This document shows positions 2,543-20,260 of a DNA stretch of 23,857 nt, one piece after another. A program made the translations under genes and the position numbers. Source of the stretch: a virus. The DNA is taken from positions 1-23,857 of the IMG/VR virus record IMGVR_UViG_3300040815_001067; one strand, given 5' to 3'. Below the pieces are notes generated by a model, which had not been told where the DNA came from, did no database searches, and saw nothing but the letters and a program-made list of their open reading frames with translations. Each line of letters begins with the position of its first letter. Position 1 is the first letter of the stretch.

Positions 2543-2560
2543 AAAAAGTCCGAAGGACTT
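2543..2560 (-). terminator. Intrinsic terminator of the 55-47-46 operon
   Basis: Read on the minus strand: stem AAGTCC / GGACTT (2560-2555 with 2551-2546), loop TTC, then TTTTT. The loop is closed by a C-G pair in a CTTCGG context, typical of very stable phage hairpins. It begins inside the stop codon of the last operon gene (2559-2561), so transcription would end right after that gene. Confidence 0.6.
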
Positions 2561-3341
2561 AATAACATGTAACACTATGGAAATATTGGTATTTCGCAAT
2601 AGTTTCTAAATCTGGTTCATGTGTTAGTTTGCCTAATGGAATATGTCCTATAGAAAGTCTTTTGTCGTCTATTGGATAAGGCAGTTTGTTATTAACTTTG
2701 ACGCACCATCTTTTAATGTCTTTAACGACTTTCTCATGATTATCAACATACAGATTCCTACCAAACCAAGCCACAAGGTCATTCTTTAGTATAGACGTGG
2801 GTACAATATGATTTGCAGGTATGTCCACATCATTATCTATTGCTAGTTCCATAATGTGTTTACCTACATGTGGGTAATTCATATACAAATGGTTTTTAAG
2901 CCTTGTGGGAGAAAAAAGATCATAATCTTCTTCCAGCAATGGCTCTCCCTCACAATGTGAACAAGTTAAAAATCTTTTATTTTGATATCTAGTGATATCT
3001 TCTAAATGGTGCAAGTGATAATTAAACATACTCCACCAGTGAAGTAACTCGCCGGTACTCTGCTTTACATTATCAGGGAAGGCAATATGAAGTTTATTTA
3101 GGTCATTGACCCAATCTAAAGGCATGTCTGGATCTAGTTCTTTAATTTTTTGAATAGATTTATTTAACTGTGCTTTTACATCTTCTTCAGTTTCACCAAA
3201 ATTATAAAACTGTGTTCTGCTCACATACTCAAAATCATTTTCCTGAAAACGTTCCCATATACGTTTTGCAACACGATTATCGAAAAGCTCGTAAGTAAGA
3301 GTATAATCTTTGTTATGCCCTAAATGGATATCTATTTTCAT
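2559..3341 (-). CDS. Conserved phage protein of unknown function, paralogue B (260 aa)
   Basis: I do not recognise a function. The protein opens MKIDIHLGHNKDYTLTYEL and shares with the upstream neighbour the blocks FDNxVAxxIWxR, FYxFGE, EPLxxxDYDLF, YMNYPHxGKHIM, IPxxxIxPTSxLK, NKLPYPIDDK and IPLGxLTHEPD, so the two are tandem paralogues. It differs in the middle, where it has LLHWWSMFNYHLHHLED and a CSHC pair (about residues 127-130) that could bind metal. No membrane segment or signal peptide is visible. Its ATG overlaps the neighbour's stop (ATGA), and a terminator overlaps its own stop, making it the last gene of the 55-47-46 operon. The operon suggests a role in DNA metabolism or the early/late switch, but this is only context. 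Confidence 0.75.
   Translation of the reverse strand: MKIDIHLGHNKDYTLTYELFDNRVAKRIWERFQENDFEYVSRTQFYNFGETEEDVKAQLNKSIQKIKELDPDMPLDWVNDLNKLHIAFPDNVKQSTGELLHWWSMFNYHLHHLEDITRYQNKRFLTCSHCEGEPLLEEDYDLFSPTRLKNHLYMNYPHVGKHIMELAIDNDVDIPANHIVPTSILKNDLVAWFGRNLYVDNHEKVVKDIKRWCVKVNNKLPYPIDDKRLSIGHIPLGKLTHEPDLETIAKYQYFHSVTCY
3290..3332. repeat. 43-bp direct repeat, copy 1 (5' end of paralogue B)
   Basis: These 43 bases are identical to 4078-4120 and encode, on the minus strand, the shared segment from DIHLGHNKDYTL to about the Tyr-Glu that follows. The rest of the two genes has diverged well below this, so the perfect stretch stands out. Confidence 0.9.
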
Positions 3342-4129
3342 GATGCTTTTACTGAATGAACAACATTGTGTCTTTTTATTTCTAATAAATCTGGTTCGTG
3401 TGTTAATCTGCCTAGTGGAATGTTACCAATAGCAAGTTTTTTATCATCTATTGGATACGGAAGTTTATTGTGTATTTTTGCAAGAAATCTATTTAAGTTT
3501 TTTAAATATGTTTTTCCTGCTAAAACGTCTTCGTCTAACCAACAAACAAAATTACTTTTTAAAACAGAAGTAGGAATTATTTGTTCTTTAGGTATGTTAA
3601 TATCTCCAGAATTAAATATTCCCATAATATGTTTACCTATATGTGGATAATTCATATATAACCAATTTTTCCTCATGTTAGGGTCAAACAGGTCATAATC
3701 TTTGTCCACTAAAGGCTCTCCTGTATCTTCCGTGTTTACTAAAATTTTAGTATTATTAGTTCCCTTTAAACTATTTAAATGAATAATAGATTTATTTAAA
3801 TTTTGTAATAGAGTTTGTACTTTTTGCGAGGGATACTTTTCCGATAAAAGTTTATTATGAAGTGATACATACAAATTATGTAGGTAATTTAAATCATTGC
3901 TCAGTACTTTTAAATCAGGAATTTTTAATTTAAGCTCAGCAATACAATTATTTAAATTCTTTTCTATATCTTTGGAAGATTCTCCAAATCCGTAAAATAG
4001 ACTACTTTGAGATACAGGAAAATTTTTATTATTAAGTCGCTTCCATATCTTTGATGCGACATTATTATCAAAAAGTTCGTAAGTAAGAGTATAATCTTTG
4101 TTATGCCCTAAATGGATATCAACCAACAT
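3338..4129 (-). CDS. Conserved phage protein of unknown function, paralogue A (263 aa)
   Basis: Tandem paralogue of the 2559-3341 gene, with the same block order: DIHLGHNKDYTL at the N-terminus, FYGFGES near 50, DYDLFDP near 145, LYMNYPHIGKHIMG near 160, NKLPYPIDDK and IPLGRLTHEPD near the C-terminus. The middle (about 60-130) is a Leu/Asn/Lys-rich helical region without the CSHC pair of its sister. I chose the ATG at 4129 (MLVDIHLGHNK) because it aligns with the sister's start and overlaps the end of gene 46 by 11 bases. A longer reading from 4162 would add 11 residues with no counterpart. The function is unknown; co-transcription with 46/47 suggests nucleic-acid metabolism. Confidence 0.75.
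   Translation of the reverse strand: MLVDIHLGHNKDYTLTYELFDNNVASKIWKRLNNKNFPVSQSSLFYGFGESSKDIEKNLNNCIAELKLKIPDLKVLSNDLNYLHNLYVSLHNKLLSEKYPSQKVQTLLQNLNKSIIHLNSLKGTNNTKILVNTEDTGEPLVDKDYDLFDPNMRKNWLYMNYPHIGKHIMGIFNSGDINIPKEQIIPTSVLKSNFVCWLDEDVLAGKTYLKNLNRFLAKIHNKLPYPIDDKKLAIGNIPLGRLTHEPDLLEIKRHNVVHSVKAS
4078..4120. repeat. 43-bp direct repeat, copy 2 (5' end of paralogue A)
   Basis: Identical to 3290-3332 and spaced 788 bases from it, about one gene length. It is the conserved start of the duplicated gene. The pair could recombine to delete or re-duplicate one gene. Confidence 0.9.
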
Positions 4130-5885
4130 ACTCAGTATCTGTATTATAACTCGTAAACCCACCTTCTTTTACGACTGTTAATACATTGTTTACACGACCA
4201 ACTAGTTCTTCTTTATGTGATATTAACATAATGTTCTTACCTTGTTCACGATGCATTTTCTTTAGTACAGCAAGTGCATTTTCAACACCCATACTATCCA
4301 TACCACTATCAACAAGTTCATCAATACACATTAGGTTCATAGGTCTGTTTAAACTTTCGTACATATCTCTAAATGCCCAACTTAAACCAAGTATAAGCCT
4401 ATTACGTTCGCCTCTACTTAAATTATCAAAGTCTAAGTCTCTGCCATATTCTGTAATTTCTACACCTAAGTCATTACTAAACTTTACATCATGTGGCAGA
4501 CCAAGTTTGTCTAAATAGTACCCAAGTCTGTGGTTCATATATGCAATATTTTGGTCAATAATTTTCTTTCTGATAAAACTATCCTTGCTAGTAAGAAGTT
4601 TGTATAAAAAGTCTTGATGCTCTTGTAAATGAGTTAGTTCGTTCATTATATCAAAACTAATTTCTTGTATACCTGTTGTACGCAATCCTTCTATTTGTTC
4701 TATATAAGGATTTACTTCTTCTGCTTTATCAGACAATTGGCTATGCATAGTTTCTAAATTATGTTTATGCTGTAATGCCTCTTCTAAAGTGGTATAAGTT
4801 GTTAAAGGATCTTGGTCTATATCAGTAAAATCTTGTACAGCCAATAATACTTCATCATGTCTTTCTACTATTTCTTTATTGTATACTTCTTCAGCAACAA
4901 TTTTATCTTCTACTTCTTTTGTGTATTCTTCATGTGTATCTAAATGAGCAGTAGGTTGTTCACATGCTGGACACACACCTGCTTTTGCACTCTCTAAATC
5001 ACTTTTAAGTTGGTCTAATTTATCATTACTTCTATTTAAACTAGTATCTAATCTTTTTAATTCCGTTTCAAGTGTTAGTTTAGTACTTCTTTTTTCTTTT
5101 AAATCTGTTTTCAATTTATGGTTTTTTAGTTCTTGCTCTATGTCAAGTTTTTCCATATCTACTATTGCTATGCCTAATTCGTTTAATTTATTTTCTTTGT
5201 TTATTTCCCAGGCTTTACTACGACTTTCTATTTCAGTAATGTTTTTTTCTATTCTTTTATTACTTGCCTCTATGGCATTGATCGTAATTTCTTCTTCTTT
5301 AATACTATCTCTAGTAAACTTTTGTCTTTCCTTTAACACTTCTGCTTTAAGAGATAATTCTGTAATACCCAACAACTGCTCAATCATGTCCTTTTGGTCA
5401 TTATTTTTCATAGCAAGGAAAGGTTCAGTATAGGTATTTAATGCAATTAAATGCTTAAACATATTATGTGGAAAGCCTATAATTTTTTCTATCTCTTTTT
5501 GTGTCTCTCTGCTATCGCCTTGTTGTTCTTCACTTATAGCATCTTCGCCATCTATGTAAAACTTTAAAATATTAGGTCTTCTTCCTCTTTCTATTCTGTA
5601 CTTTTTGCCTTGTATTTCAAACTCAACTGTGGTTATCATACCTTTGCCGTTTGTTTTGTTTATAAGGTTATCTTTACGGATATTAGTCAATGCTTCACCG
5701 TACAATGCATAACTGAGTGCATTTATTATAGTAGTTTTGCCAGTACCATTTCTGCTACCGTCTCCGCCCATGTCTAAGTTATGACCTAGTACAAGTGTAA
5801 GTTGGCAGTTATCAAAATTAACTGCCTGTGTGTTGTTGCCAACACTCATAAAGTTTTTTGCTGATACGTTTTTAATCTTTAACAT
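4119..5885 (-). CDS. 46: gp46-like recombination endonuclease subunit (Rad50/SbcC-type ATPase)
   Basis: A 588-aa ABC-type ATPase of the SMC/Rad50 group; T4 gp46 is about 560 aa. Walker A is GSRNGTGKT (43-51), followed by a long charged coiled coil, a zinc-hook motif CPAC (305-308) at its apex, the second coil arm, the ABC signature NLSRGER (488-494), Walker B MNLMCIDEL (516-524, Asp522/Glu523) and a switch His in ISHKEEL (555-561). Every part needed for an active enzyme is present. With gp47 it forms the phage Mre11-Rad50-like complex that processes DNA ends for recombination-dependent replication and host DNA breakdown. Its ATG overlaps the stop of 47 by one base (TAATG), so the two subunits are translationally coupled. 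The next gene starts inside its last codons. Confidence 0.95.
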   Translation of the reverse strand: MLKIKNVSAKNFMSVGNNTQAVNFDNCQLTLVLGHNLDMGGDGSRNGTGKTTIINALSYALYGEALTNIRKDNLINKTNGKGMITTVEFEIQGKKYRIERGRRPNILKFYIDGEDAISEEQQGDSRETQKEIEKIIGFPHNMFKHLIALNTYTEPFLAMKNNDQKDMIEQLLGITELSLKAEVLKERQKFTRDSIKEEEITINAIEASNKRIEKNITEIESRSKAWEINKENKLNELGIAIVDMEKLDIEQELKNHKLKTDLKEKRSTKLTLETELKRLDTSLNRSNDKLDQLKSDLESAKAGVCPACEQPTAHLDTHEEYTKEVEDKIVAEEVYNKEIVERHDEVLLAVQDFTDIDQDPLTTYTTLEEALQHKHNLETMHSQLSDKAEEVNPYIEQIEGLRTTGIQEISFDIMNELTHLQEHQDFLYKLLTSKDSFIRKKIIDQNIAYMNHRLGYYLDKLGLPHDVKFSNDLGVEITEYGRDLDFDNLSRGERNRLILGLSWAFRDMYESLNRPMNLMCIDELVDSGMDSMGVENALAVLKKMHREQGKNIMLISHKEELVGRVNNVLTVVKEGGFTSYNTDTEYVG

Positions 5886-7935: not shown

Positions 7936-8865
7936 ATGCCGGGATTTTTAAAAAACATTGCACAAGGATATTTAGGTAATTTAGCCAACCAGAAGATTGG
8001 TGGAATAAGAAATCCAGTTGCTAGACGTTTAGCAGGTGGGTTATTGAGCAATACTGGGTTAGGTAATTTCCTACCAGGGCTAAATAATCCTCCTAGAAAC
8101 CCAGATCAAAATTTACTTTTTGGTGCAAGAAATTTGAGTGAGCTTCAACTAAGGGACCAGATAGCACAAGAAACATCTATGTCTTCAGCATTTGAAATCC
8201 CAAATCAGGATAAAATATCAGAAAATTACGATTGGCGAGCAAGATTAAGACCTAAAAGAGGTGGTGAGTCGTATGTATACGGAACAGCATACGAAAATGA
8301 GGGGACTAACATACTACAGCCTATTATAAATTCAAACGGGTTAATATGGCAATATACACCGCAAATATTTGTTGCGGCTGGAACAAATTATACACAATAT
8401 GATTTACAAGGCATGAATTATCCTATATATGCATATCAAAATAGTAGACCGCCTGAATTACCTATTGCCGCAGAATTTACAGCAAACAATATTGATGAAG
8501 CAAGGTATATGTTGGCAATCATGCATTTTTTAAAAGTAATAACAAAAAGTTATTCAGGTGATGCCGCAGTGGCACAAGGTGTAGCAGGAACTCCGCCTCC
8601 GGTATTATTATTTGAATATCTGGGAGAGCATGGATTTAATAAAGTTCCAGTAATTGTAAAAGATTATTCTATACAGTATTCAGAAGATGTGGACTACGTT
8701 CCGGTACATTACAAAATGGGAAGTAGAGATACAGTAACTTATGTACCAACAGCCGCATTGGTTTCAATCAATATGTCAGTAAATTATACACCTAAGAAAC
8801 TTAGAAAGCAATTTGATATTACAGGACTCACAACAGGAGCCGCCTACTCAGACGGATTTATTTAA
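7936..8865 (+). CDS. Baseplate / tail-tube junction protein (gp48/gp54-like)
   Basis: A 309-aa protein. The first 60 residues are Gly/Asn/Leu-rich and likely flexible. The rest fits the small tube-initiator type baseplate proteins of T4-like phages: LQPIINSNGLIWQYTPQI (about 126-143), a tube-like beta domain, then PPPVLLFEYLGEHGFNKVPVIVKDY (about 215-239) and a C-terminal strand VSINMSVNYTPKKLRKQFD. In T4, gp48 and gp54 cap the baseplate and start tail-tube polymerisation. I cannot decide which of the two this is, or whether it replaces both, as no second copy is present here. It is first in the operon, preceded by a late-promoter-like motif and AGGAG, and its stop overlaps the gp53 start (TAATG). 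Confidence 0.75.
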   Translation: MPGFLKNIAQGYLGNLANQKIGGIRNPVARRLAGGLLSNTGLGNFLPGLNNPPRNPDQNLLFGARNLSELQLRDQIAQETSMSSAFEIPNQDKISENYDWRARLRPKRGGESYVYGTAYENEGTNILQPIINSNGLIWQYTPQIFVAAGTNYTQYDLQGMNYPIYAYQNSRPPELPIAAEFTANNIDEARYMLAIMHFLKVITKSYSGDAAVAQGVAGTPPPVLLFEYLGEHGFNKVPVIVKDYSIQYSEDVDYVPVHYKMGSRDTVTYVPTAALVSINMSVNYTPKKLRKQFDITGLTTGAAYSDGFI

Positions 8866-9167
8866 TGGCATTATTTCATAGTAAAAATAGTTTTCTAAAG
8901 AATGCTGGAACAAAAGGTGAGTATTTAGATGTAAACAATCTACCCAGAATGCCTAAAGGCATATATGACGAAGACTTTGTGATATCTGCAGAATTTAATA
9001 ATAGACCTGACATTTTAGCTCTAAAATTATATGGTTCAACATCATTATGGTGGGTATTTGCATTAAGAAACCCTGACATACTGATTGATCCTATTAGAGA
9101 CTTTAAATCCGGTATAGAAATAAAACTACCATCCCAAGAGTCAGTAAAAGCAGTCACAGGAGGGTAA
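8865..9167 (+). CDS. 53: gp53-like baseplate wedge protein
   Basis: A 100-aa protein with the family core RPDILALKLYGSTSLWWVFALRNPD (about 47-71, shown in part) followed by DPIRDFKSGIEIKLPS. The pattern 'Tyr-Gly-x-x-x-x-Trp-Trp' followed by a short Asp-Pro turn and a strand ending in Leu-Pro is typical of gp53 and of LysM-like wedge proteins. T4 gp53 is 196 aa, so this is about half length and keeps mainly the core. In T4, gp53 joins adjacent wedges around the hub. The start overlaps the previous stop by one base, and AGGAGG at its 3' end serves the next gene. Confidence 0.85.
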   Translation: MALFHSKNSFLKNAGTKGEYLDVNNLPRMPKGIYDEDFVISAEFNNRPDILALKLYGSTSLWWVFALRNPDILIDPIRDFKSGIEIKLPSQESVKAVTGG

Positions 9168-9168
9168 G

Positions 9169-12018
9169 ATGGGTATACCAGAAAATTATGGATACCATAC
9201 AGATAATGGAAGTGGTAGCCCTCAAAAAGATTACTCCACAAACCCTATGGCTTTTGAGGGACCTGTAAAACCCCCTGAAACAAACTCTAAAAAACCTAAA
9301 AATATTGCTATTAATGAATATGTAGGTGAAGTATTATCTAATGAATTAGATGATTTTGACAATGCTACATATAATCTGAAACTTTATATGATAGCACCTG
9401 GTACAGCAACTACTAGTGCAGGTAATGAAAGCACAGCAGTAGAAGACACAGAAGGTGGTGGACAACTACAATCAGGTGGTACTGGTTGGCTTAATGACAG
9501 CGTCAGAGACAAACCAGAAAATACAGTAGTACTTGCACAAACAGGTGTAACTGAGGTTGGAATAGACAGTCTATCAATTATTACTGTAGGCAACGAACAA
9601 TCAATATGTAATTTTAGAATTACACAGCCACTTGCCGCAGATTTCCCTGACCAAATAGTAAGAGCCAGAACATACTTAGGAATGCCTGCAGACGCAATGG
9701 ATTGTCCTTTATTTCTAGAGATTAATTTTGTAGGTTACAAAGAATCAGACATGAATCAATACACATGGAATGTTGAAGAAGGTGGCAAACCACAACTTAT
9801 AAAAGGTCCGTATATTTTTCCTTTGTTACTTAAAAACTTTAATATGAATGTAGATGGTGGTGGCTCAACATATGAATTTGAAACAGTAGTAAAAGACGAT
9901 GTTGCATCTGCGGATAAATTCAATAGGCTATCTAGATTATTTACTATTTCAGGTAGCTCAATATATGAAATGTTAGCAGACCTAGAAGAACAAGTAAATG
10001 CAGAAAAAGAAAAAGATGGCAAAGTAGAAAGAATAAGTTTTGGTCTACCTGGCCCTGCTGGTACAACAGATACTGAATCTGATACTTTTACCTTTTCTGC
10101 AGAAGATTTTCAAGGTGGGTCTCTTACAAAAACTGTGCCTGGTTTACTTTTAAATGATCAAAGTTTAGATGTAGCACAAGCAGAAAACGTTGCAAAAGTT
10201 ATTAACCCAGAAACATCTGAAGCAAAGGATACGGTAGAAGCAGAAGCAAAAACTAAAAAGCCTAGAAAAAAATCTAACAGTGATGATAAAGATGCAGACG
10301 ATAATGCAGTTTCTATAGATCTCAGAAAGCAAATGAAAATGGAAGAAGCGGTTGGTATTATACTTTCCATGAACAAAGAGTTTATGGAAAAATCCAATAG
10401 ATCTAAATTAGATCCATCTAAAACAGATGTGGACATTAATAAACAAGTAATGTGGTACAGGCTGAATACAAGTGTTGGGTATGGAAAATTTATACCTGAA
10501 CGTAAAGAGTACGAAAAAACAGCATACTTTATACCTGAAACATACCTAAGTCCAAGATCAGATATTGCGGCACTACCTGAAGAAATTATTAAAACTGCGG
10601 AAATTACAAAAGAAGAAGCTCGACAACGTGTAAATCAAATGCATGTTAGAAAAGCATACGAATATATATTTACAGGAAGGAACGATCAAATTTTAGATGT
10701 AAATATTCAATATAATGAAGGTATTGCATTATTACTACCTAAAGAAAGAGGATTATTAGGAGATGTAAGTTTAAATGCGTCGAGTGTTTTAAATTCAAAT
10801 AGTGTACCTAAAAATGAAAGTGCAAAAGACGGTGGTATAGACAAATTAAATGAAGCCGCTAAAAAAGATGGTATGGGTTTCTTTGATGCACTTAAAGAAC
10901 TTAAAGATACAGCAGAAAGCACACTAAATCTAATAGGACAAGCCGCTAACTTTAACTCCGAACAATTAAAAGATCTTATAGATAACCAAGTAGGTGCTTC
11001 TGCACAAAAATTAAAAAATATTTTATCAGATCAGGTCAGTGCTCAGGCGATAGCAGACTCACTTACCCCAGGAAGAAAAGCCCAAGCTCAAGAAAACGTA
11101 ACAACAGAAGTAGATGAATTCTCTCCTAAAGAGTCAGGATTTATTTATGGTGGTGATTTAGGTTTGCAAGGGCAACAAAAATTTGCAGAAAAACTTAAAG
11201 ACGGCGGTCTACTTTTTAAAGACCAACATACTAAAGACGATAGCGATGATAAAGAAGGATCATCAAAAAATGGTATAGCATTAAGGTATAGAGAAGAATT
11301 TAAATCAGGCTTTGCAAAAGTAGGAACAACCAAGGGAATTAAAAATAACTTGTTTACATATCTTTACGACCAACACCAAGCAATAGACTTCTTAATGAAA
11401 CTTGACTTAACATTAAGGGGAGACCCGTGGTGGTTAGGCAAGGAGCCTTTAGCACCAGGTGTTAATAAAATGCCTGCCGGAGAACCAACCAGTAATACTA
11501 AAGAAACATCTGGTGACAGTGATAACTACTTAACAACTACCAGAGATAATTTTTTCTTGTTTAGTATGAATTCCCCAAGGCTGTTTGACGCCAATAACGA
11601 GGATGAAGATGCAAATACCGGTTTATGGGATCAAAAGAATGATGGCACATCATACTTTTTGTCAGGCATTTATCAAGTGAAAAAGGTTACACATAATTTT
11701 GATTCAGGTGAATATAAAATGGATGTAGAAGGTGTAAAAGAAACAGCCATTAATTTAGATCAAGTTGGTAGGTTACATAATTTTAGTTATGTTGATACAG
11801 AAAGAACAGGGTTTACAGCACGAAGCCAAGATGGTAATTTAACACAGTCAGATATAGATGCTCAAGGCGGAAGATTTAGAACAGACCCATATTACCTTGT
11901 TAAAGGCGCTATGGCTAACTCTAAAGAAAGCCCAGAGCAACTTCTTAAGAGTAATAAAATATCTCAAGAAGAATATGACGGTTACATATCAAGGAAAAAG
12001 GAATTAGATAATGGGTAA
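9169..12018 (+). CDS. Large baseplate hub-like structural protein (949 aa), possible gp27 counterpart
   Basis: Position between gp53 and the gp5-like spike, and the C-terminal end, suggest a hub protein. Residues 745-756 (DLTLRGDPWWLG) and 834-859 (GIYQVKKVTHNFDSGEYKMDV...) fit the hub pattern in which a last beta domain reads 'Leu-x-Gly-Asp-Pro-Trp' and then 'Gly-x-Tyr-x-Val-x-x-Val-x-His-x-Phe-x-x-Gly'. T4 gp27 (391 aa) forms the trimer that holds gp5. N-terminal residues 45-270 look like a second beta-rich domain. Between are long Lys/Glu/Asp-rich and low-complexity stretches (about 90-110, 275-390, 535-720). AGGAGG precedes the ATG at 9169. Its end overlaps the gp5-like gene by 8 bases. 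The gp27 link is inferred from pattern and place; no clear full-length homology is claimed. Confidence 0.6.
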   Translation: MGIPENYGYHTDNGSGSPQKDYSTNPMAFEGPVKPPETNSKKPKNIAINEYVGEVLSNELDDFDNATYNLKLYMIAPGTATTSAGNESTAVEDTEGGGQLQSGGTGWLNDSVRDKPENTVVLAQTGVTEVGIDSLSIITVGNEQSICNFRITQPLAADFPDQIVRARTYLGMPADAMDCPLFLEINFVGYKESDMNQYTWNVEEGGKPQLIKGPYIFPLLLKNFNMNVDGGGSTYEFETVVKDDVASADKFNRLSRLFTISGSSIYEMLADLEEQVNAEKEKDGKVERISFGLPGPAGTTDTESDTFTFSAEDFQGGSLTKTVPGLLLNDQSLDVAQAENVAKVINPETSEAKDTVEAEAKTKKPRKKSNSDDKDADDNAVSIDLRKQMKMEEAVGIILSMNKEFMEKSNRSKLDPSKTDVDINKQVMWYRLNTSVGYGKFIPERKEYEKTAYFIPETYLSPRSDIAALPEEIIKTAEITKEEARQRVNQMHVRKAYEYIFTGRNDQILDVNIQYNEGIALLLPKERGLLGDVSLNASSVLNSNSVPKNESAKDGGIDKLNEAAKKDGMGFFDALKELKDTAESTLNLIGQAANFNSEQLKDLIDNQVGASAQKLKNILSDQVSAQAIADSLTPGRKAQAQENVTTEVDEFSPKESGFIYGGDLGLQGQQKFAEKLKDGGLLFKDQHTKDDSDDKEGSSKNGIALRYREEFKSGFAKVGTTKGIKNNLFTYLYDQHQAIDFLMKLDLTLRGDPWWLGKEPLAPGVNKMPAGEPTSNTKETSGDSDNYLTTTRDNFFLFSMNSPRLFDANNEDEDANTGLWDQKNDGTSYFLSGIYQVKKVTHNFDSGEYKMDVEGVKETAINLDQVGRLHNFSYVDTERTGFTARSQDGNLTQSDIDAQGGRFRTDPYYLVKGAMANSKESPEQLLKSNKISQEEYDGYISRKKELDNG

Positions 12019-14800
12019 GAAAGGAGATTATTCACAGCAGATCTTAGGGACCACATTTCATAATCCTGAGCCTGATAAACCTGATCATTTAGATAATGGT
12101 ATCTTTCTTGCTAAAATTGTAAACAATCAAGACAGTTTCTATACAGGTTCGGTAGATGTTGAAATCCCACAATTACATAAAACTACTGGCACAAAAGTAA
12201 AATCAATAAAAAAGGTAAGATTTTCTACACCGTTTGGCGGTATTTCTAACATAGATAATCTAAATGCTAACGACACAGAAAAGTATGAAAATACACAACA
12301 AAGTTACGGAATGTGGACCTCACCACCAGATGTTGGAAGTATGGTTCTGGTTGCATTTGCTGACGGTAACACCAAACACGGATACATATTAAGTCACGTT
12401 TTACCACCAGATTTTAATCATATGATTCCTGGCATACCTGCAGGGAAGACTTTTCAAGGAGGAAACTTTTTACTCCCTGCGGCAGAAAAAAACAAATACT
12501 CTGAACAAAAAGGCCATAACAATATATTGAGACCAGTACACCATGATATGGCTGAAGCAATTACTAAGCAGGGCCTTATAAATGACAACATAAGAGGAGC
12601 AGGAACGCAAGGTGCAAGAAGAGAGACACCTAGTTCACTAGTAGGAATACTTACAAAAGGCCCTAGGGGTAAAGACGGCACAACAGTTATTGGGGCAGGA
12701 CATCAGTTTGTAATGGATGATGAAACAACCAGTTCAATGATTAGATTGCGATCCGGTAAAGGGCAACAAATATTATTAGATGATGTAACTGGCTCCATTT
12801 ACATGATCAATAAAGACGGAAAAGCATGGGTGGAGTTAGACAGGCTTGGTAATATAAATGTTTTTGGAGAAGGTGATCTTAACCTAAGAGCTAAAAAGAA
12901 TTTTAACTTACGAGCAGACTATGATATTAATATTGAAGCAGGCCAAAACGTAAGAGTAAAAGCCGCAGGAGATAATATAGCAGGAGATTATACTGGAGTT
13001 AAATTAGGAAAATTAGGATTGCCACCATTAGGTTCAGGAGGAAATATAAATTTTCATGCGGCCGCAGATATGGGTATGTTAGCAACTCGTAATGCTCAAC
13101 TATCTGCTATAGGCGGCGACATAGACATTAACTGTGGTAACATGCTAAAGACAGCAAGTGGTACAGCAACGTCTATCACATCTACAACAATGGGTGTAGA
13201 TATAAAAGCAGTCGCTGGTGTTGTAGGCATTGCCGCACCCTCAGTAGGAGTTACATCAGCACTAACAGGAATATCTGGAGGTATAATAAATTTAAATACA
13301 GGGCCTGCACCAGTACTTAAAGGATTAGAAGCATTAAAAGTTTCTGCACCTTCGTTAGATGGAAACGAAATAGAAGATCAACCCAGTGATCCACCTGAAT
13401 ACGACCGGGAAGGTGATGTTGTATTGACTAGTGGTGGTAAAAGGCCAGGTAAAAAAACAAAAATAAGTACCATTGTGGGGACATTAATAACTGCTGAACC
13501 ATACGATGGGCATGGACAGTTTGACCCAACCACAGAAGATCCCTCGTCAATAGGAGAGGATAAGAACGCAGATAAAGAAACATTACCAAATCAAATTGAA
13601 GCAGGAGATGATAACCCTGCAGACGCTGTAACGCCTGAAGGAGATAAAAAAGGAAATGGCTTTGCCGATAAGGCATCTGGAGCAGTAGGTACAGCATCAG
13701 ATATATCTTCGGCAATAGGAAATGGATTAGGATCGGTAAGCAATCAAATTGGTGGAGCCATAGACTCTGCTCTTGGCATGATTCCAAATATGGAAGGCAT
13801 TACAGGAATGGCTAGCAATTTCTTACCAGCAAGTATGAAAAATTTAATGGGTATAAAGAATATGTCAGGTTTAATGGCGGCATTAGGCATAGCCATTCCT
13901 GCATTTAGGTTCCCCACAGGCAATGCATTAGGAGATAAAGTTATAGGTGTTGCTAAAGATTTGAAAGAACTAGAAGCAAGACTAGGGCAATTTAGTTTAA
14001 ATGATTTTGACTTACCTATAGATCTAGACTCACTGCAAATAAAAGAAATGAAAAATAAAATTACAGGTGTTGTGGATTCAGTAAACGAACTTCAAAGCAG
14101 GGCTAGTGAAATTAGCGGCGCAGTGAATGATTTAAGAACCCATGCAGACCTCTTAAAAGGAAAAGTTGGAGACTACCGGGAAATATATGATGGGGTTACT
14201 GGAGAGCCTATGGGTTCTATGGGAGTTACATCAAAAAACTTTACAGCAGTAAAAGATGCATTAGCAGAAAAACAAGTAGACATGGTAGTAGATGGACCTA
14301 GTTTGATATTCGCAGACAGAAAAACAGGAAATAAAATCGTAGATGTATCTAATGGTATAGGACCAGTTGGACAACAGTTAGGTCTTATAAGCAGATTAGG
14401 TGAGACTAAGAGACTTATATCAGACCTAATAACAGTACAAATAAGCGACAACCAATTATTAGCATTAGTAAGTTTTGCTACTCACATAGGAGTAGATAGA
14501 TTTGCTAAAAGCGAATTGTTATTAGAATTAAATAACGGAAACTACGAAAGAGTACCAACATTAATGAAACGTTGGAGAACTGGAAAGGTAGGTCCTGACA
14601 GTGATGTTGTAGTACGACAGGATTATGTACAAAGACGTGAATACGAATGTGAGCTCTTTACCACGCCTGATTGGTTAAACTTAACGAATGAGGAATTGGG
14701 AGTAAGTGATCAGAGTAAAAATTTGTCGTTTAGACAACTAAGATCATTATTAAAATCCGCAAAAGAGCGTAAGTATAAAGAAATGGGAATTACAAACTAA
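12011..14800 (+). CDS. 5: gp5-like baseplate central spike protein with C-terminal lysozyme-like domain
   Basis: A 929-aa protein. Residues about 28-135 form the OB-fold domain of gp5/VgrG-type spikes (IFLAKIVNNQDSFYTGSVDV ... GSMVLVAFADGNTKHGYIL). Residues about 190-420 are short beta repeats (MIRLRSGKGQQILLDD, GSIYMINKDGKAWVELD, NLRAKKNFNLRADYDINIEA) of a trimeric beta-helix needle. Residues 430-560 are acidic low complexity, 560-650 Gly/Ala/Met-rich, 650-720 helical. In T4 gp5 the lysozyme domain sits between OB fold and needle; here that place holds none. Instead residues about 755-885 look like a GH24 lysozyme: NQLLALVSFATHIGVDRF (814-831), a following LLLELNNGNYERV and QRREYE (874-879). 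The expected catalytic Glu appears as Asp761 and the usual TIGYGH is not recognisable, so activity is doubtful. T4 gp5 is 575 aa. Confidence 0.85.
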   Translation: MGKKGDYSQQILGTTFHNPEPDKPDHLDNGIFLAKIVNNQDSFYTGSVDVEIPQLHKTTGTKVKSIKKVRFSTPFGGISNIDNLNANDTEKYENTQQSYGMWTSPPDVGSMVLVAFADGNTKHGYILSHVLPPDFNHMIPGIPAGKTFQGGNFLLPAAEKNKYSEQKGHNNILRPVHHDMAEAITKQGLINDNIRGAGTQGARRETPSSLVGILTKGPRGKDGTTVIGAGHQFVMDDETTSSMIRLRSGKGQQILLDDVTGSIYMINKDGKAWVELDRLGNINVFGEGDLNLRAKKNFNLRADYDINIEAGQNVRVKAAGDNIAGDYTGVKLGKLGLPPLGSGGNINFHAAADMGMLATRNAQLSAIGGDIDINCGNMLKTASGTATSITSTTMGVDIKAVAGVVGIAAPSVGVTSALTGISGGIINLNTGPAPVLKGLEALKVSAPSLDGNEIEDQPSDPPEYDREGDVVLTSGGKRPGKKTKISTIVGTLITAEPYDGHGQFDPTTEDPSSIGEDKNADKETLPNQIEAGDDNPADAVTPEGDKKGNGFADKASGAVGTASDISSAIGNGLGSVSNQIGGAIDSALGMIPNMEGITGMASNFLPASMKNLMGIKNMSGLMAALGIAIPAFRFPTGNALGDKVIGVAKDLKELEARLGQFSLNDFDLPIDLDSLQIKEMKNKITGVVDSVNELQSRASEISGAVNDLRTHADLLKGKVGDYREIYDGVTGEPMGSMGVTSKNFTAVKDALAEKQVDMVVDGPSLIFADRKTGNKIVDVSNGIGPVGQQLGLISRLGETKRLISDLITVQISDNQLLALVSFATHIGVDRFAKSELLLELNNGNYERVPTLMKRWRTGKVGPDSDVVVRQDYVQRREYECELFTTPDWLNLTNEELGVSDQSKNLSFRQLRSLLKSAKERKYKEMGITN

Positions 14801-14991: not shown

Positions 14992-15597
14992 TTATTCCTC
15001 GAAAATTATATTCTGTAGTAAGTCTGTTACAGTATTATTTAACAAAACTTCACTATGTCCTGCTTCTATTGTGATGTTTTGAGTGTTTTTAAAACCTGGT
15101 GGTGTAGCACCCTGGCTATCACAAGATATCATACCGTCATTTGCTTTGCCACCTAGTCCTGCAACAGGATTAGAACCTCTGGTACATATGATATTAGTAT
15201 GCTTACCATTAAAATTCTTTTCCTGTAATAATGATAACACTTCTGCACCAGGTTTTGTATTTTGGAAAACTTTGCCTTTAAAAAACATACCAAATATTCT
15301 AGCAACTGGTGTGCCTTCCCAAGGTGTAGCAATAGTTACTAAGTGTTTAACACGCCTAGGGTATACACTAGCATACCAACTAGCAATTAAACCGCCAAAA
15401 CTATGCCCTACAACTACAACAGGTTCTTTTCCAAACTCTCTTTCTTTACGAATTCTTAATATTTCTACGATATCAAAAGGATCGTCTTCCATATCATATG
15501 CTGGAGCCATAAATTTATGCTCAGGTAACTTTAAAGTAAAATAATTAAAGTTTTCTGGGCTGGCATTTGCACCATGTAAGTAGATTGCATTTTTCAC
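14992..15597 (-). CDS. Alpha/beta hydrolase, lipase/esterase-like
   Basis: A 201-aa protein with a complete alpha/beta-hydrolase layout: YLHGANAS (6-13, oxyanion strand-turn), nucleophile elbow GHSFG (64-68, Ser66), TIATPWEGTP (88-97, the conserved Thr-Pro after strand 6 in lipases), NDGMIS (153-158, Asp154 as acid) and EAGHSEVL (178-185, His181). It has no signal peptide, so it would act in the host cytoplasm unless released at lysis. The substrate is unknown; an ester or lipid is most likely from the lipase-like pattern. The start is GTG at 15597, as an in-frame TAG lies just upstream and no other start is available. A sigma-70 promoter sits directly before it. It interrupts the baseplate cluster on the opposite strand, which suggests a cargo (auxiliary) gene. 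Confidence 0.85.
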   Translation of the reverse strand: MKNAIYLHGANASPENFNYFTLKLPEHKFMAPAYDMEDDPFDIVEILRIRKEREFGKEPVVVVGHSFGGLIASWYASVYPRRVKHLVTIATPWEGTPVARIFGMFFKGKVFQNTKPGAEVLSLLQEKNFNGKHTNIICTRGSNPVAGLGGKANDGMISCDSQGATPPGFKNTQNITIEAGHSEVLLNNTVTDLLQNIIFEE

Positions 15598-15631: not shown

Positions 15632-15660
15632 CTATTAATTAAAACTTGTTATAATGAATA

Positions 15661-15669
15661 TGATAAATA
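15661..15669 (+). promoter_or_regulatory. Late-promoter-like motif TGATAAATA for the gp25-gp6 operon
   Basis: Third plus-strand copy of the motif. Its end is only 5 bases before the ATG at 15675. With T4-like spacing the transcript would begin at about that ATG, so gp25 mRNA would be leaderless. No Shine-Dalgarno sequence is seen before this or the earlier in-frame ATGs at 15654 and 15660. Confidence 0.55.
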
Positions 15670-15674
15670 CTTGT

Positions 15675-16046
15675 ATGGCAACATTGTTTAAAGGATTTAG
15701 TACAGTAGATAAAGTTAGGGCACCATATACTCTGACTGATGCTGATTTAGTTAAAAGAGATCTGCTAAATCACTTTTATACCAGAATAGGTGAAAGAGTA
15801 ATGAGACCCACATTTGGAAGTGTTATATGGGATTATCTTATGGAACCGGAAGATCCTGAAACACAAGAAATAATTAAAGAAGATATTGAGCGTATTGTTA
15901 ATAGTGATCCAAGAGTCCAGTTCCAAGAAACAATTTTAACAATTTTAGATCATACAATACAAGCAGAAGTAAAAATAAGATATGTATTACTTAACAGTGA
16001 TGATAGTTTGTTTTTAGAATATGTTACTAATAGAGATAGTGAATAA
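15675..16046 (+). CDS. 25: gp25-like baseplate wedge protein
   Basis: A 123-aa protein of the gp25 family (also found as W/gp25 and type VI secretion TssE-like proteins): LKRDLLNHFYTRIGERVMRP as VKRDLLNHFYTRIGERV, then FGSVIWDYLMEP, then ERIVNSDPRVQ and a C-terminal beta strand. The length is close to T4 gp25 (132 aa). In the baseplate wedge it binds gp6 and starts sheath polymerisation. The frame also opens at 15654, but I prefer 15675 (MATLFKGFSTVD), because the earlier ATGs lie upstream of or inside the promoter motif. The stop overlaps the gp6 ATG by one base (TAATG), matching their one-to-two partnership in the wedge. Confidence 0.9.
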   Translation: MATLFKGFSTVDKVRAPYTLTDADLVKRDLLNHFYTRIGERVMRPTFGSVIWDYLMEPEDPETQEIIKEDIERIVNSDPRVQFQETILTILDHTIQAEVKIRYVLLNSDDSLFLEYVTNRDSE

Positions 16047-19000
16047 TGGCATCAGTAAATAGACAAAACAATTTATTTGCCGCAGAAGATTGGAAAATTG
16101 CCTATAAGGCATTCAGCCAAGTAGATTTTCAGGCTTATGATTTTGATACAATACGAACAACTTTAGTTGATTATATAAGAACAAATTTTCCCGAAAACTT
16201 TAACGACTACATTGAAAGTTCAGAGTTTATTGCAATCCTAGAATTACTTGCATTTTTAAGTACAAGTATTTCCTTCAGAATGGATGTTAATACTAGAGAA
16301 AACTTTTTGGAAACAGCAGAAAGAAGAGACTCAGTATTTAAATTAGCAAGAATGTTAGGTTATAATCCTAAAAGAAATATAACAGCAAGTGGATTAATGA
16401 AACTTAGTGCTGTAACAACCACAGAGCCATTAGTAGATAGTCAAGGAACACAATTAAGTAATACTAAAGTTTTCTGGGACGACGCAAATAACCCTGACAG
16501 TTACGAACAATTTATTACAATACTTAACTCAGCGATGAGTAGCACAAATAGATTTACTGCTCCTGTTAAGACAGGTAAAGTTGCAAATATTAATACAGAA
16601 AAATATAATTTAAATACAACTATAGGTTCACCGATATCCTATTCATTTACAGTAAATGCAAATGGTGTAAACAGAACATGCGAAATTGTAAATGGTGATT
16701 TTTATGACGGAAAGTATTTTTATGAGCAAGAACCAAACCCTACAAATAACTTTGGGTTATTTTATAGAAATGATGGACAAGGAATAGCAAGTAACAACAC
16801 AGGATTCTTTTTATTATTTAAACAAGGCACATTGGCATTTGAAGACTTTAACTTTACCACACCTGTGGTAAGCAGAGTACAAGATATAAACATATCTAAT
16901 ATTAATGAGACTGATGTTTACTTACAAGAAATTACTACAGGCGGCACAGTATTAAACCAATGGACAAAGATTCCAAATACTGTAGGACAAACTTTAAACT
17001 ACAATAGCCAACAACTTAATAGTAGAAATTTATATGCTGTTGAGAACCTTAACAATAATGGCATACGATTAAGATTTCCAGACGGCAACTTTGGAAACAT
17101 TCCTAATGGTGTTTTTAGAGCTTGGTACAGAACTAGTGATCCAGAGTCATATAGCATACAACCAGACGACGCAACTAATTTAAGTGTTACCTTACCTTAC
17201 GAAAATGCTTCAGGCGAACAACATAATTTAACATTAACATTTGGATTAAAATCATCAGTAAACAATAGTTTACCTGCAGAAACATTAACAAATGTAAAAG
17301 CAAATGCTCCTGAAACATTCTATACACAAAACAGAATGGTTAGTGCTCAGGACTACCAAACATTTCCGGCTAGTCAATCATCTAATCTTAAAAAAATAAG
17401 AGCTACAAATAGAACACATGCAGGGCATAGTAGGTATATAGATATTACTGATCCTACTGGTACATTCCAAAGCATAGAAACTTATGCAGAAGACGGTATT
17501 TTATATGCTGATGTAAATAATATTTCTGAAACATTTACTATAAATGAAAACAATACAGCAACAGAAGTAGTTAATAGTATCCTGCCTTTATATTTAAAGG
17601 ATCAATCATTAAATAACTTTACATATGATACTTTAAGAAAAAGTGTTATAGCAACATCACCAGCAACGTTTGATACAAGTGGTAGAACAATAAACTGGGC
17701 TACACTACCAGTTATGGCCACAAACAATACAGGCTATCTAACAGAAAATACCGTAGCAAATGAAGTTGTAACTACAAGTGTATTAATTAATACTACAGCA
17801 GATACATCAATGTTTAAGGAAAACAATTTTGTAAAATTTGTTAATCCGGAAAATGTGTCAGATTATAAATGGGTAAGATTAACAAGGATTGATAATAACG
17901 GACAATTATCAAGTGGATTAAGTACATCTACAGGACCAATTACAATAAGCTCATCAGTAACGAATGGCTGGAAGGCAAACGAAATTATTGCAAGTTTAAG
18001 AAAAACATTTACTGCTACCGAACAATCACAAATTATAACAGAATTAAATAACAAGAGAAATTTCGGTTTAGGATATGATCCATCTTTAGATGAATATTAC
18101 ATTATACAAAACGAAAATTTATCTTTACCTTCAAATGGTGTACTACCAGATTACAGTTTTGCTAATGCCAAAGATACTTCCGGTACAAATGCTGACGCAA
18201 GTTATATAGTACATTTTAAATATAATCCTATATCAACAGACTCTTATAGTTATAATGTAACAGTTAGAGGTCTAGATTATGTTGTTCAAAGTAAGGAAGA
18301 CTTAAAGTTTTATAACGTAAAGAGTACTAAAGTTACAGACAATACTACTAAGGCAGTAAGAGATACCATTACGTTTAACACATTAAATACAAAACCTGGT
18401 GTTACTGAAGTATTTAAATGGTATGACAACGATAACGATAATAAAGGTGAACAATGGGAGAGCCAGGAAACAGGCGCCAGGTATACACCTAATACTACAG
18501 TTCCAATGATACCTTTAAGAAGTAGAAATTATTATTGGTACGATTTGGAAGTGGAATGGCAAAGTACATTTGGTATTTTAAGAGGTGGTGATTCAGGAGC
18601 CAATGTAATTGCAAACAATAGTTTTGTTGATGAAGCAAAAATAAACATTAACACTTTCTATGAAGACAACACCGTATTTGAAGAAAGAACAAACGTAACA
18701 ATAGCAAACGTTTCAGGAAGAATAGAACATTTCCCTGCAAATATTACCATTAATTTTGATAACACTACTTTTGGATATAACTTATTTGACAGCACAGGCA
18801 ACATTATATACAAAGCAGAAAACACCAGTACTGGAGTAGTTGAGTTTTACAAGGCATTTGCAAATAGTGAAGGATATTCTTTTGGTGTGACAGGTGGTAC
18901 AGCAAATGCAGACTCCACAGGGAGATTAATATTATCAAATGCAAATACTGTAGCACAAACAGGAACACTAACATACACAGGTGTACAAAATGCTACAGGG

Positions 19001-20260
19001 TTCTTACATGCACAAGACAGCAGTTCTAACTTTAGTGTTGATAAAGTAAACGTAATTTATCTAAATGATAAAGACAAACTAGACGAAGACATTCAATGGG
19101 TAATATCAGACACATTTACTGAACCTGACGGATATGTAGACCCTAGAAAAGTAAAAGTAGCACCAATAGATTCAGATGAGGACCTAGTTCCTGATAAACC
19201 ATTACAGTATGATGATTTTGTTGGGCCTAAGAATTTAGTATTTTTTGAATACTACACAGACTTTGATGGTTATACATATGACAGACCAGCAAGTGGAGTA
19301 ATTTTAGACTATAGAGGTGAAACAGGAATTGATATCTCTGATACAACATATCTTTCTCCATTAAGTTACAGCAACCCAACAGCATGGGGCACAGATGGTG
19401 ATTTAAAAGTAAACTTTTTAATTGTGGATACTGTAGAGATTGCAGAATCTCTTAACAATACAGCAACAGGAAATGATGCACCAAGGTATAACGGGTTAGT
19501 AATTTATGTTACTGAAAACAAAAAAGTATACCAAATGACCAAAAGTAGCACGAATAGTAATACAGTTACTTTGATAGAAACAAACGATTATATTGTTAGA
19601 CAAGGTAGGTCTTCTACGCAAAATACAGCAGTTAGAGATCCTCAAAATGTAATAATTAAGTGGAATCATACAGCACCAAATGACGTTAGAATAGACCCAA
19701 GCATCAGTAATGTTGTAGAAATGTTGGTATTAACACAAACATATTATACAGAAATATTAAAATATATCAATGTACCTGGTACTCCATATCCACTTGCACC
19801 CACAAGTGAAGAACTTGCAAATGAATTTGAAAAATTAAATGAATTTAAAAGTGCTAGTGATACCATAGTATATAAAAGTGCTAAGTTTAAAACATTGTTT
19901 GGTTCAAATGCAGACGCAACTAATCAAGCCAAATTTAAAATAGTAAAATTACCTGGTACAAATTTAAGTGATAATGAAATAAAATCAAAAGTTATAAATC
20001 TTTTTAAAGTATATTTTGATGCAGATAATTGGGAGTTCGGTGAAACTTTTTACTTTACTGAATTAGCAAGTTATATACATCAAAACTTAGGAAACTCAGT
20101 AGGAAGTATAGTAATTTTACCTAAAAATACATCAGGAAGTTTTGGAGATTTATTCCAGGTAAAAGCAGAGCCTAATGAGTTATTCCTTAGTACTGCTACT
20201 GTTGACGATATTTCAATAGTTGAAAAAATAACATCTCAAACATTAAGAGCTGACAGATAA
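16046..20260 (+). CDS. 6: gp6-like baseplate wedge protein, very large (1404 aa)
   Basis: The N-terminal 130 residues carry the gp6 pattern (DFDTIRTTLVDYIRTNFPENF, in part; then SSEFIAILELLAFLSTSISFRMDVNTRENFLETA in pieces; then RRDSVFKLARMLGYNPKR). This is the baseplate J-like core that dimerises into the inner wedge ring and closes the iris around the hub. T4 gp6 is 660 aa; this protein is more than twice that. The extra length is mostly Asn/Thr/Ser-rich beta sequence between about 130 and 1230, with a gp6-like end after that (LTQTYYTEILKYINVPGTPYPLAP near 1230, then TELASYIHQNLGNSVGSIV near 1340). It is translationally coupled to gp25 and followed 1 base later by the next structural gene. 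Confidence 0.85.
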   Translation: MASVNRQNNLFAAEDWKIAYKAFSQVDFQAYDFDTIRTTLVDYIRTNFPENFNDYIESSEFIAILELLAFLSTSISFRMDVNTRENFLETAERRDSVFKLARMLGYNPKRNITASGLMKLSAVTTTEPLVDSQGTQLSNTKVFWDDANNPDSYEQFITILNSAMSSTNRFTAPVKTGKVANINTEKYNLNTTIGSPISYSFTVNANGVNRTCEIVNGDFYDGKYFYEQEPNPTNNFGLFYRNDGQGIASNNTGFFLLFKQGTLAFEDFNFTTPVVSRVQDINISNINETDVYLQEITTGGTVLNQWTKIPNTVGQTLNYNSQQLNSRNLYAVENLNNNGIRLRFPDGNFGNIPNGVFRAWYRTSDPESYSIQPDDATNLSVTLPYENASGEQHNLTLTFGLKSSVNNSLPAETLTNVKANAPETFYTQNRMVSAQDYQTFPASQSSNLKKIRATNRTHAGHSRYIDITDPTGTFQSIETYAEDGILYADVNNISETFTINENNTATEVVNSILPLYLKDQSLNNFTYDTLRKSVIATSPATFDTSGRTINWATLPVMATNNTGYLTENTVANEVVTTSVLINTTADTSMFKENNFVKFVNPENVSDYKWVRLTRIDNNGQLSSGLSTSTGPITISSSVTNGWKANEIIASLRKTFTATEQSQIITELNNKRNFGLGYDPSLDEYYIIQNENLSLPSNGVLPDYSFANAKDTSGTNADASYIVHFKYNPISTDSYSYNVTVRGLDYVVQSKEDLKFYNVKSTKVTDNTTKAVRDTITFNTLNTKPGVTEVFKWYDNDNDNKGEQWESQETGARYTPNTTVPMIPLRSRNYYWYDLEVEWQSTFGILRGGDSGANVIANNSFVDEAKININTFYEDNTVFEERTNVTIANVSGRIEHFPANITINFDNTTFGYNLFDSTGNIIYKAENTSTGVVEFYKAFANSEGYSFGVTGGTANADSTGRLILSNANTVAQTGTLTYTGVQNATGFLHAQDSSSNFSVDKVNVIYLNDKDKLDEDIQWVISDTFTEPDGYVDPRKVKVAPIDSDEDLVPDKPLQYDDFVGPKNLVFFEYYTDFDGYTYDRPASGVILDYRGETGIDISDTTYLSPLSYSNPTAWGTDGDLKVNFLIVDTVEIAESLNNTATGNDAPRYNGLVIYVTENKKVYQMTKSSTNSNTVTLIETNDYIVRQGRSSTQNTAVRDPQNVIIKWNHTAPNDVRIDPSISNVVEMLVLTQTYYTEILKYINVPGTPYPLAPTSEELANEFEKLNEFKSASDTIVYKSAKFKTLFGSNADATNQAKFKIVKLPGTNLSDNEIKSKVINLFKVYFDADNWEFGETFYFTELASYIHQNLGNSVGSIVILPKNTSGSFGDLFQVKAEPNELFLSTATVDDISIVEKITSQTLRADR

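Follow-up and report, generated by a model that had tools for sequence, protein, structure and literature searches.

The window, as the whole stretch of DNA analysed here is called, comprises 23,857 nucleotides (positions 1 to 23,857 of IMG/VR record IMGVR_UViG_3300040815_001067) from an uncultured virus of bacteria. It contains a T4-like baseplate cluster with genes for a gp53-like protein (8865–9167), a 949-aa protein that carries the PHROG label "virion structural protein" and is listed between gp53 and gp5, a gp5-like cell-puncturing spike, a gp25-like protein (15654–16046), and a gp6-like protein (16046–20260). The spike, a central spike of the baseplate hub/tail lysozyme family, is encoded on the plus strand at 12011–14800 and is 929 aa long. 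Its residues 244–415 match PHROG 13211 ("baseplate hub subunit and tail lysozyme"; E=7.6e-29), and residues 30–376 share 37% identity with PA5oct-like Pseudomonas phages by tblastn. PA5oct gp5 itself is only 477 aa long and shows no match for a C-terminal domain.

The T4-type order of OB fold followed by beta-helix needle is present in the spike, as indicated by sub-threshold Pfam matches together with the strong PHROG and tblastn matches. Part of the OB-fold domain lies at residues 98–128 (12302–12394; PF04717, sub-threshold), and the triple beta-helix needle at residues of about 288–400 (12872–13210; DUF2345, sub-threshold). Pfam and PHROG searches yielded no match to a lysozyme family between the two, which agrees with a preliminary description, made from the sequence alone, in which the OB fold ran straight into the needle. 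That description also placed a linker of some 300 residues ahead of a GH24-like lobe, and the needle and the C-terminal domain are indeed about 300 residues apart. The linker (residues of about 441–743; 13331–14239) belongs in relatives either to gp5 or to a separate gene for the C-terminal domain. It is followed by a rebuilt N-lobe at residues 744–789 (14240–14377), delimited by predicted elements and conserved residues, a GH24 C-lobe at residues 792–858 (14384–14584), the end of the C-lobe with an RR-x-x-E motif and TPD at residues 859–887 (14585–14671), and an extra C-terminal helical extension in the predicted fold at residues 888–929 (14672–14797), all on the plus strand. The two landmarks by which the lobe had been recognized, NQLLALVSFATHIGVDRF and QRREYE, occupy residues 814–831 and 874–879, respectively. 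The domain referred to here as the half-lysozyme spans about residues 744–887.

Sequence comparison identifies the C-lobe as GH24. PF00959 matches residues 792–858 over profile positions 44–110 of 125, with E=1.1e-10 and 42.3 bits (cut-off 22.3 bits), well beyond what chance would give. One such match per record was obtained in the window and 20 related virus records (21/21), always beginning at profile positions 39–49, whereas matches in controls (the C-terminal GH24 domains of 121Q, RaK2, and Vibrio 2.275.O plus two separate lysozymes) begin at positions 9–11. All 31 members of one alignment (A6) also match the profile. Searches with phmmer linked the lobe to SpmX and to the P22 and R21 lysozymes, with the SpmX muramidase domain (6h9d) as best match; among solved lysozymes, the best alignment begins at spike residue 796 or beyond. 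Likewise, hhalign of the 31-sequence profile against nine phage GH24 endolysins gave 99.3% probability in a local alignment confined to residues 790–884. The spike C-terminal domain is thus a true relative of GH24 that is canonical in its C-lobe only. Profile, fold, and conservation across 61 sequences all support the GH24-like lobe first noticed at the C-terminus, although the domain as a whole reaches further than that lobe, back to about residue 744 and onward to the C-terminus.

Counts of individual residues depend on how the sequences were assembled. Exclusion of 11 matches that were weak or short left 65 distinct domain strings, five of which (L001, L199, L201, L203, and L204) are re-reads of contigs already included. 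Removing these five and adding the window gave a set of 61 rows, which are distinct sequences rather than independent phages; counts out of 60 omit one row that is truncated at the column in question. Since duplicates had been merged beforehand, this step also took the L004, L007, L022, and L032 sequences out of the 61; each of the four has Asp761 in a separate set of 47 rows.

The canonical active site of GH24 is missing from these domains. The pattern T-hydrophobic-G-x-G, which represents the TIGYGH-type strand with the catalytic Thr, occurs in 0/65 distinct C-terminal domains as opposed to 15/15 control GH24s, in keeping with the earlier remark that the TIGYGH region was unrecognizable. A longer Glu-to-Gly pattern is found in 0/65 and 14/15, respectively (the one control that failed was ctEw122). 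In the 61-row set, columns 742–811 contain no conserved Glu, and residues 752–754, at the helix end expected to bear it, are variable among 60 sequences. Comparison of the catalytic positions among homologues therefore recovers neither a conserved Glu nor the Thr-strand motif. A displaced catalytic Glu was also considered and rejected, as no Glu is conserved at any other place in the domain and only column 798 exceeds 30% Glu (21/61).

Other positions are strongly conserved. Asp761 is invariant (60/60), as are Gly773, Gly782, Gly784, Phe831, and Ser834 (61/61 each). Asp769 occurs in 54/60 and is otherwise Asn or His, while residue 778 is Asp in 54, Glu in five, and Asn in two of the 61 sequences (acidic in 59/61). 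Ile766 (59/61), His825 (53/61), Trp855 (52/61), and Arg876 (60/61) are also well maintained, and the conserved set takes in both the core of the GH24 C-lobe and the RR-x-x-E motif. Of 16 hand-chosen pairs, 15 returned a dN/dS value, the window–L004 pair being lost since L004 is absent from the set; values ranged from 0.03 to 0.16, with several of the underlying dS estimates above 1 and only approximate. The invariant residues and the low dN/dS indicate that the domain is maintained rather than decaying, and its strict conservation across many related viruses implies that the altered form has a job.

The structure prediction proposed in the preliminary description was carried out, and the predicted fold matches lysozymes best. 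A first AlphaFold2 run with 13 sequences gave a mean pLDDT of 72.6 and a poor N-lobe, and a run with 31 aligned sequences raised the mean for the C-terminal domain to 87.2. In the latter model, a helix at 744–753 is followed by strands at 756–761, 764–769, and 775–778, a long helix at 785–806, the C-lobe helices, and an extra C-terminal helix at 907–924 that has no counterpart in PF00959. As modelled, the rebuilt N-lobe consists of one short and one long helix with three strands between them, and lacks TIGYGH and a conserved Glu. The best 22 Foldseek rows are all lysozymes, endolysins, or muramidases, headed by the SpmX muramidase domain (E=6.8e-6), and VIA-align gave Z 12.8 and rmsd 4.0 over 117 aligned residues with 8app, and Z 12.6 and rmsd 3.8 over 114 with 6h9d.

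The register of Asp761 is less secure than had been supposed. The residue was originally placed at the position of the catalytic Glu; however, none of the alignments in the best ten VIA-align rows begins before model residue 25, which is Asp761. The first residue of P22 lysozyme (2anv) to be aligned with the model is 19. The TIGVGH strand of this enzyme lies at 31–36, while T4 e lysozyme, whose Glu is residue 11, has the corresponding TIGIGH strand at 26–31; if the same spacing holds with no indel, the P22 Glu is residue 16. The Glu-bearing element of P22 lysozyme therefore has no partner in the spike alignment, which starts at Asp761, three residues beyond that Glu. By the order of predicted elements, Asp761 would instead mark the end of the first strand and lie nearer the position of T4 Asp20, for which the candidate equivalents by register are Asp769 (54/60) and Asp761 (60/60).

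The half-lysozyme occurs both fused to gp5 and as a separate protein. It is fused in 20 of the 61 sequences, encoded by the following gene in 35, and of indeterminable state in six. In 24 of the split cases the break falls after the linker, so that the second gene encodes little beyond the domain, while in the other 11 it falls before the linker and the second gene encodes both. The tree requires at least five changes among the three states (fused and two split types), and thus the domain has become joined to or separated from gp5 several times, yet the two have stayed adjacent. Such a pattern is consistent with a protein that acts together with the spike, be it covalently attached or not. Inspection led to the rejection of a programmed frameshift joining the split genes: their relative frame is not constant, and there is a start codon close to the gp5 stop. 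Misassembly was likewise rejected, as many contigs have the same layout.

Half-lysozymes were found only in IMG/VR contigs. A tblastn search of 50,697 phage records with residues 701–929 returned three records, two of them from the same phage, with the annotations lysozyme, lysin, and endolysin. These correspond to two different proteins, which were rejected as half-lysozymes, being GH24 endolysins with TIGYG, and none was therefore found among isolated phages. Contigs from bacterial genomes (84,980 species, one genome per species) yielded 19 pattern-matching stretches, none of which was a relative by that method. A separate observation concerns the "putative lysin" of S-PM2 (116499–116717; L212 532–750), annotated at about 72 aa. 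Its open frame extends upstream to take in an intact GH24 N-lobe, and judging from the reading frame the annotated start looks to be too late.

The relocation of the lysozyme in gp5 has precedents. In the sections consulted of the published accounts, T4 gp5 carries its lysozyme domain between the OB fold and the needle (PMC3622015), RaK2 gp5 combines a beta-helix with a lysozyme domain at its C-terminus, as set out in 2013 (PMC3622015), and CBB gp5 likewise has a C-terminal lysozyme, with a possible central M23 domain and an adjoining separate lysozyme gene (PMC5259590). The preliminary description was thus right that the domain is C-terminal, but a move to this place had already been described; C-terminal placement is known, and what has no known precedent is the half-lysozyme variant. 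Within the sections searched of the literature, including PMC3622015, PMC5259590, PMC10253068, PMC10966104, and PMC12364344, no account was found of a gp5 spike whose GH24 domain lacks the active site. A literature search for the peptide-contact residues of T4 returned no hits.

Spikes of the RaK2/121Q/CBB type resemble that of the window in having an OB fold, a needle, and a GH24-type domain at the C-terminus, in their baseplate gene neighbourhood, and in the presence of a separate lysozyme gene nearby (121Q 586, RaK2 ORF073). The C-terminal GH24 is intact in RaK2, 121Q, and Vibrio 2.275.O; in 121Q and RaK2 it has the full N-lobe, with Glu and TIGYGH, that is replaced in the window spike, whose C-lobe is nearest instead to the SpmX, P22, and R21 lysozymes. 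T4 gp5 shares the spike of OB fold and beta-helix, but its lysozyme has Glu and TIGIGH and precedes the needle, whereas the window domain follows it. The same C-terminal slot holds SLT_3 in XacN1, and in other spike homologues PF18013 (L079 5935–9477, L084 5941–9450), M15_4 (L067 2789–5455), or GH19 (L104 3289–5769). It is not always a murein hydrolase, since Atu_ph07 carries a trypsin-like domain there. The half-lysozyme is one more filling of a freely swapped slot.

There are also more distant parallels. The muramidase domain of SpmX from Caulobacterales, which was both the best phmmer match and the top Foldseek row for the second model, belongs to a bacterial localization factor and retains a recognizable N-lobe, unlike the window domain, which lacks the Glu-bearing element. 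SpmX is reportedly a detoxified phage lysin and would be a precedent for a GH24 put to another use. In the evolved VgrG spikes of type VI secretion, an effector-like domain is added after the needle, much as here, although in a secretion system rather than a phage baseplate. A possible parallel by analogy is the hub protein gp15 of A-1(L), which according to the sections consulted combines a lysozyme domain with an endoglucanase and a peptidase domain, the last two of which are reported to be active (PMC10966104).

The reading that we favour, at a probability of roughly one half, is that the domain is a lysozyme-derived, non-cutting, peptidoglycan-binding tip module in which the GH24 C-lobe was kept and the N-lobe rebuilt. 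It would descend from a GH24 phage lysozyme whose N-lobe was shortened with loss of the catalytic Glu and the TIGYGH strand, and would be borne as C-terminal cargo of a trimeric spike, or, in relatives, as a separate partner encoded by the gene that follows gp5. Tail contraction would carry it through the outer membrane into the periplasm, where the retained groove may grip peptidoglycan or a periplasmic wall partner without performing the standard muramidase reaction. The sequences themselves show the domain content, the missing motif, the conservation, and the fused and split forms, while the trimer, the location at the tip, the binding of peptidoglycan, and the absence of cutting are points that we infer. 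Binding without cutting is favoured because neither the general-acid Glu nor the strand with the Thr is left, and the murein hydrolases found in the slot of relatives (GH24, PF18013, M15_4, GH19, and SLT_3) count towards a wall-directed module. These hydrolases would also suit an active murein-cleaving enzyme in which an aspartate site (Asp761, Asp769, and Asp/Glu778), set above the former GH24 groove, has replaced Glu-Asp-Thr, an alternative that we consider unlikely but of real weight. Strong purifying selection is in keeping with either reading. The conservation of these acids counts against a non-cutting module and would suit an enzyme, as would the relative G016 (250,519 bases), in which the half-lysozyme is the sole hit to ten murein-hydrolase families, with GH19 and GH108 searched without a working control; endolysins of families beyond the ten could be present there. 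Against an aspartate site stand the lack of a conserved Glu at the general-acid position and the predicted placement of the acids in turns and at the ends of strands, positions at which Asp is often found on structural grounds. T4 lysozyme is not known to tolerate any replacement of Glu11. The active site, earlier termed "probably dead", is likely so for the standard GH24 mechanism but not proven to be, given the (near-)invariant acids of the rebuilt N-lobe and the strong purifying selection on it. That phage spikes here carry murein-cleaving enzymes of a new class, combining the GH24 C-lobe groove with a rebuilt N-lobe and Asp761 paired with Asp/Glu778, is a doubtful proposition.

A purely structural role, in which the domain caps, trimerizes, or docks the spike tip or binds a baseplate protein and makes no contact with peptidoglycan, seems improbable. 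Its fusion to a structural protein in some sequences and encoding by an adjacent gene in others are what a docking partner might show, and the extra C-terminal helix is compatible with such a role, but conservation extends to the core of the GH24 C-lobe and to RR-x-x-E, and hydrolases occupy the slot in relatives. A decaying lysozyme remnant without function has nothing in its favour beyond the loss of the canonical motif and is contradicted by what was observed of selection and conservation, as well as by the retention of a free-standing gene in more than half of the sequences; we regard it as scarcely credible. In the favoured reading of binding without cutting, how such phages open the wall becomes a testable question, while if the domain does cut, it has a new active site. 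In giant T4-like viruses, then, the end of the gp5 spike is a swappable slot with mostly wall-acting cargo, and in one widespread group this cargo is a domain of lysozyme origin, strictly conserved although its cutting half has been rebuilt.

Several other genes of the window deserve mention. An alpha/beta-hydrolase gene (PF00561, PGAP1-like) lies antisense between gp5 and gp25 at 14992–15597 on the minus strand. Many relatives have a minus-strand ORF of about 202–215 aa at the equivalent site following gp5 or the half-lysozyme, the sequence having been examined for the window, L006, and L007 only. Two adjacent minus-strand genes (2559–3341 and 3338–4162) are diverged tandem copies with 44% identity over 265 aligned columns, and neither has a convincing Pfam match (none in one, a single sub-threshold match in the other). 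Finally, the gene at 1662–2084 on the plus strand encodes a SegE-like GIY-YIG homing endonuclease (PF19835, E=5.4e-34), and the "NAD synthetase" label of PHROG 447 for this gene looks to be a wrong PHROG name.
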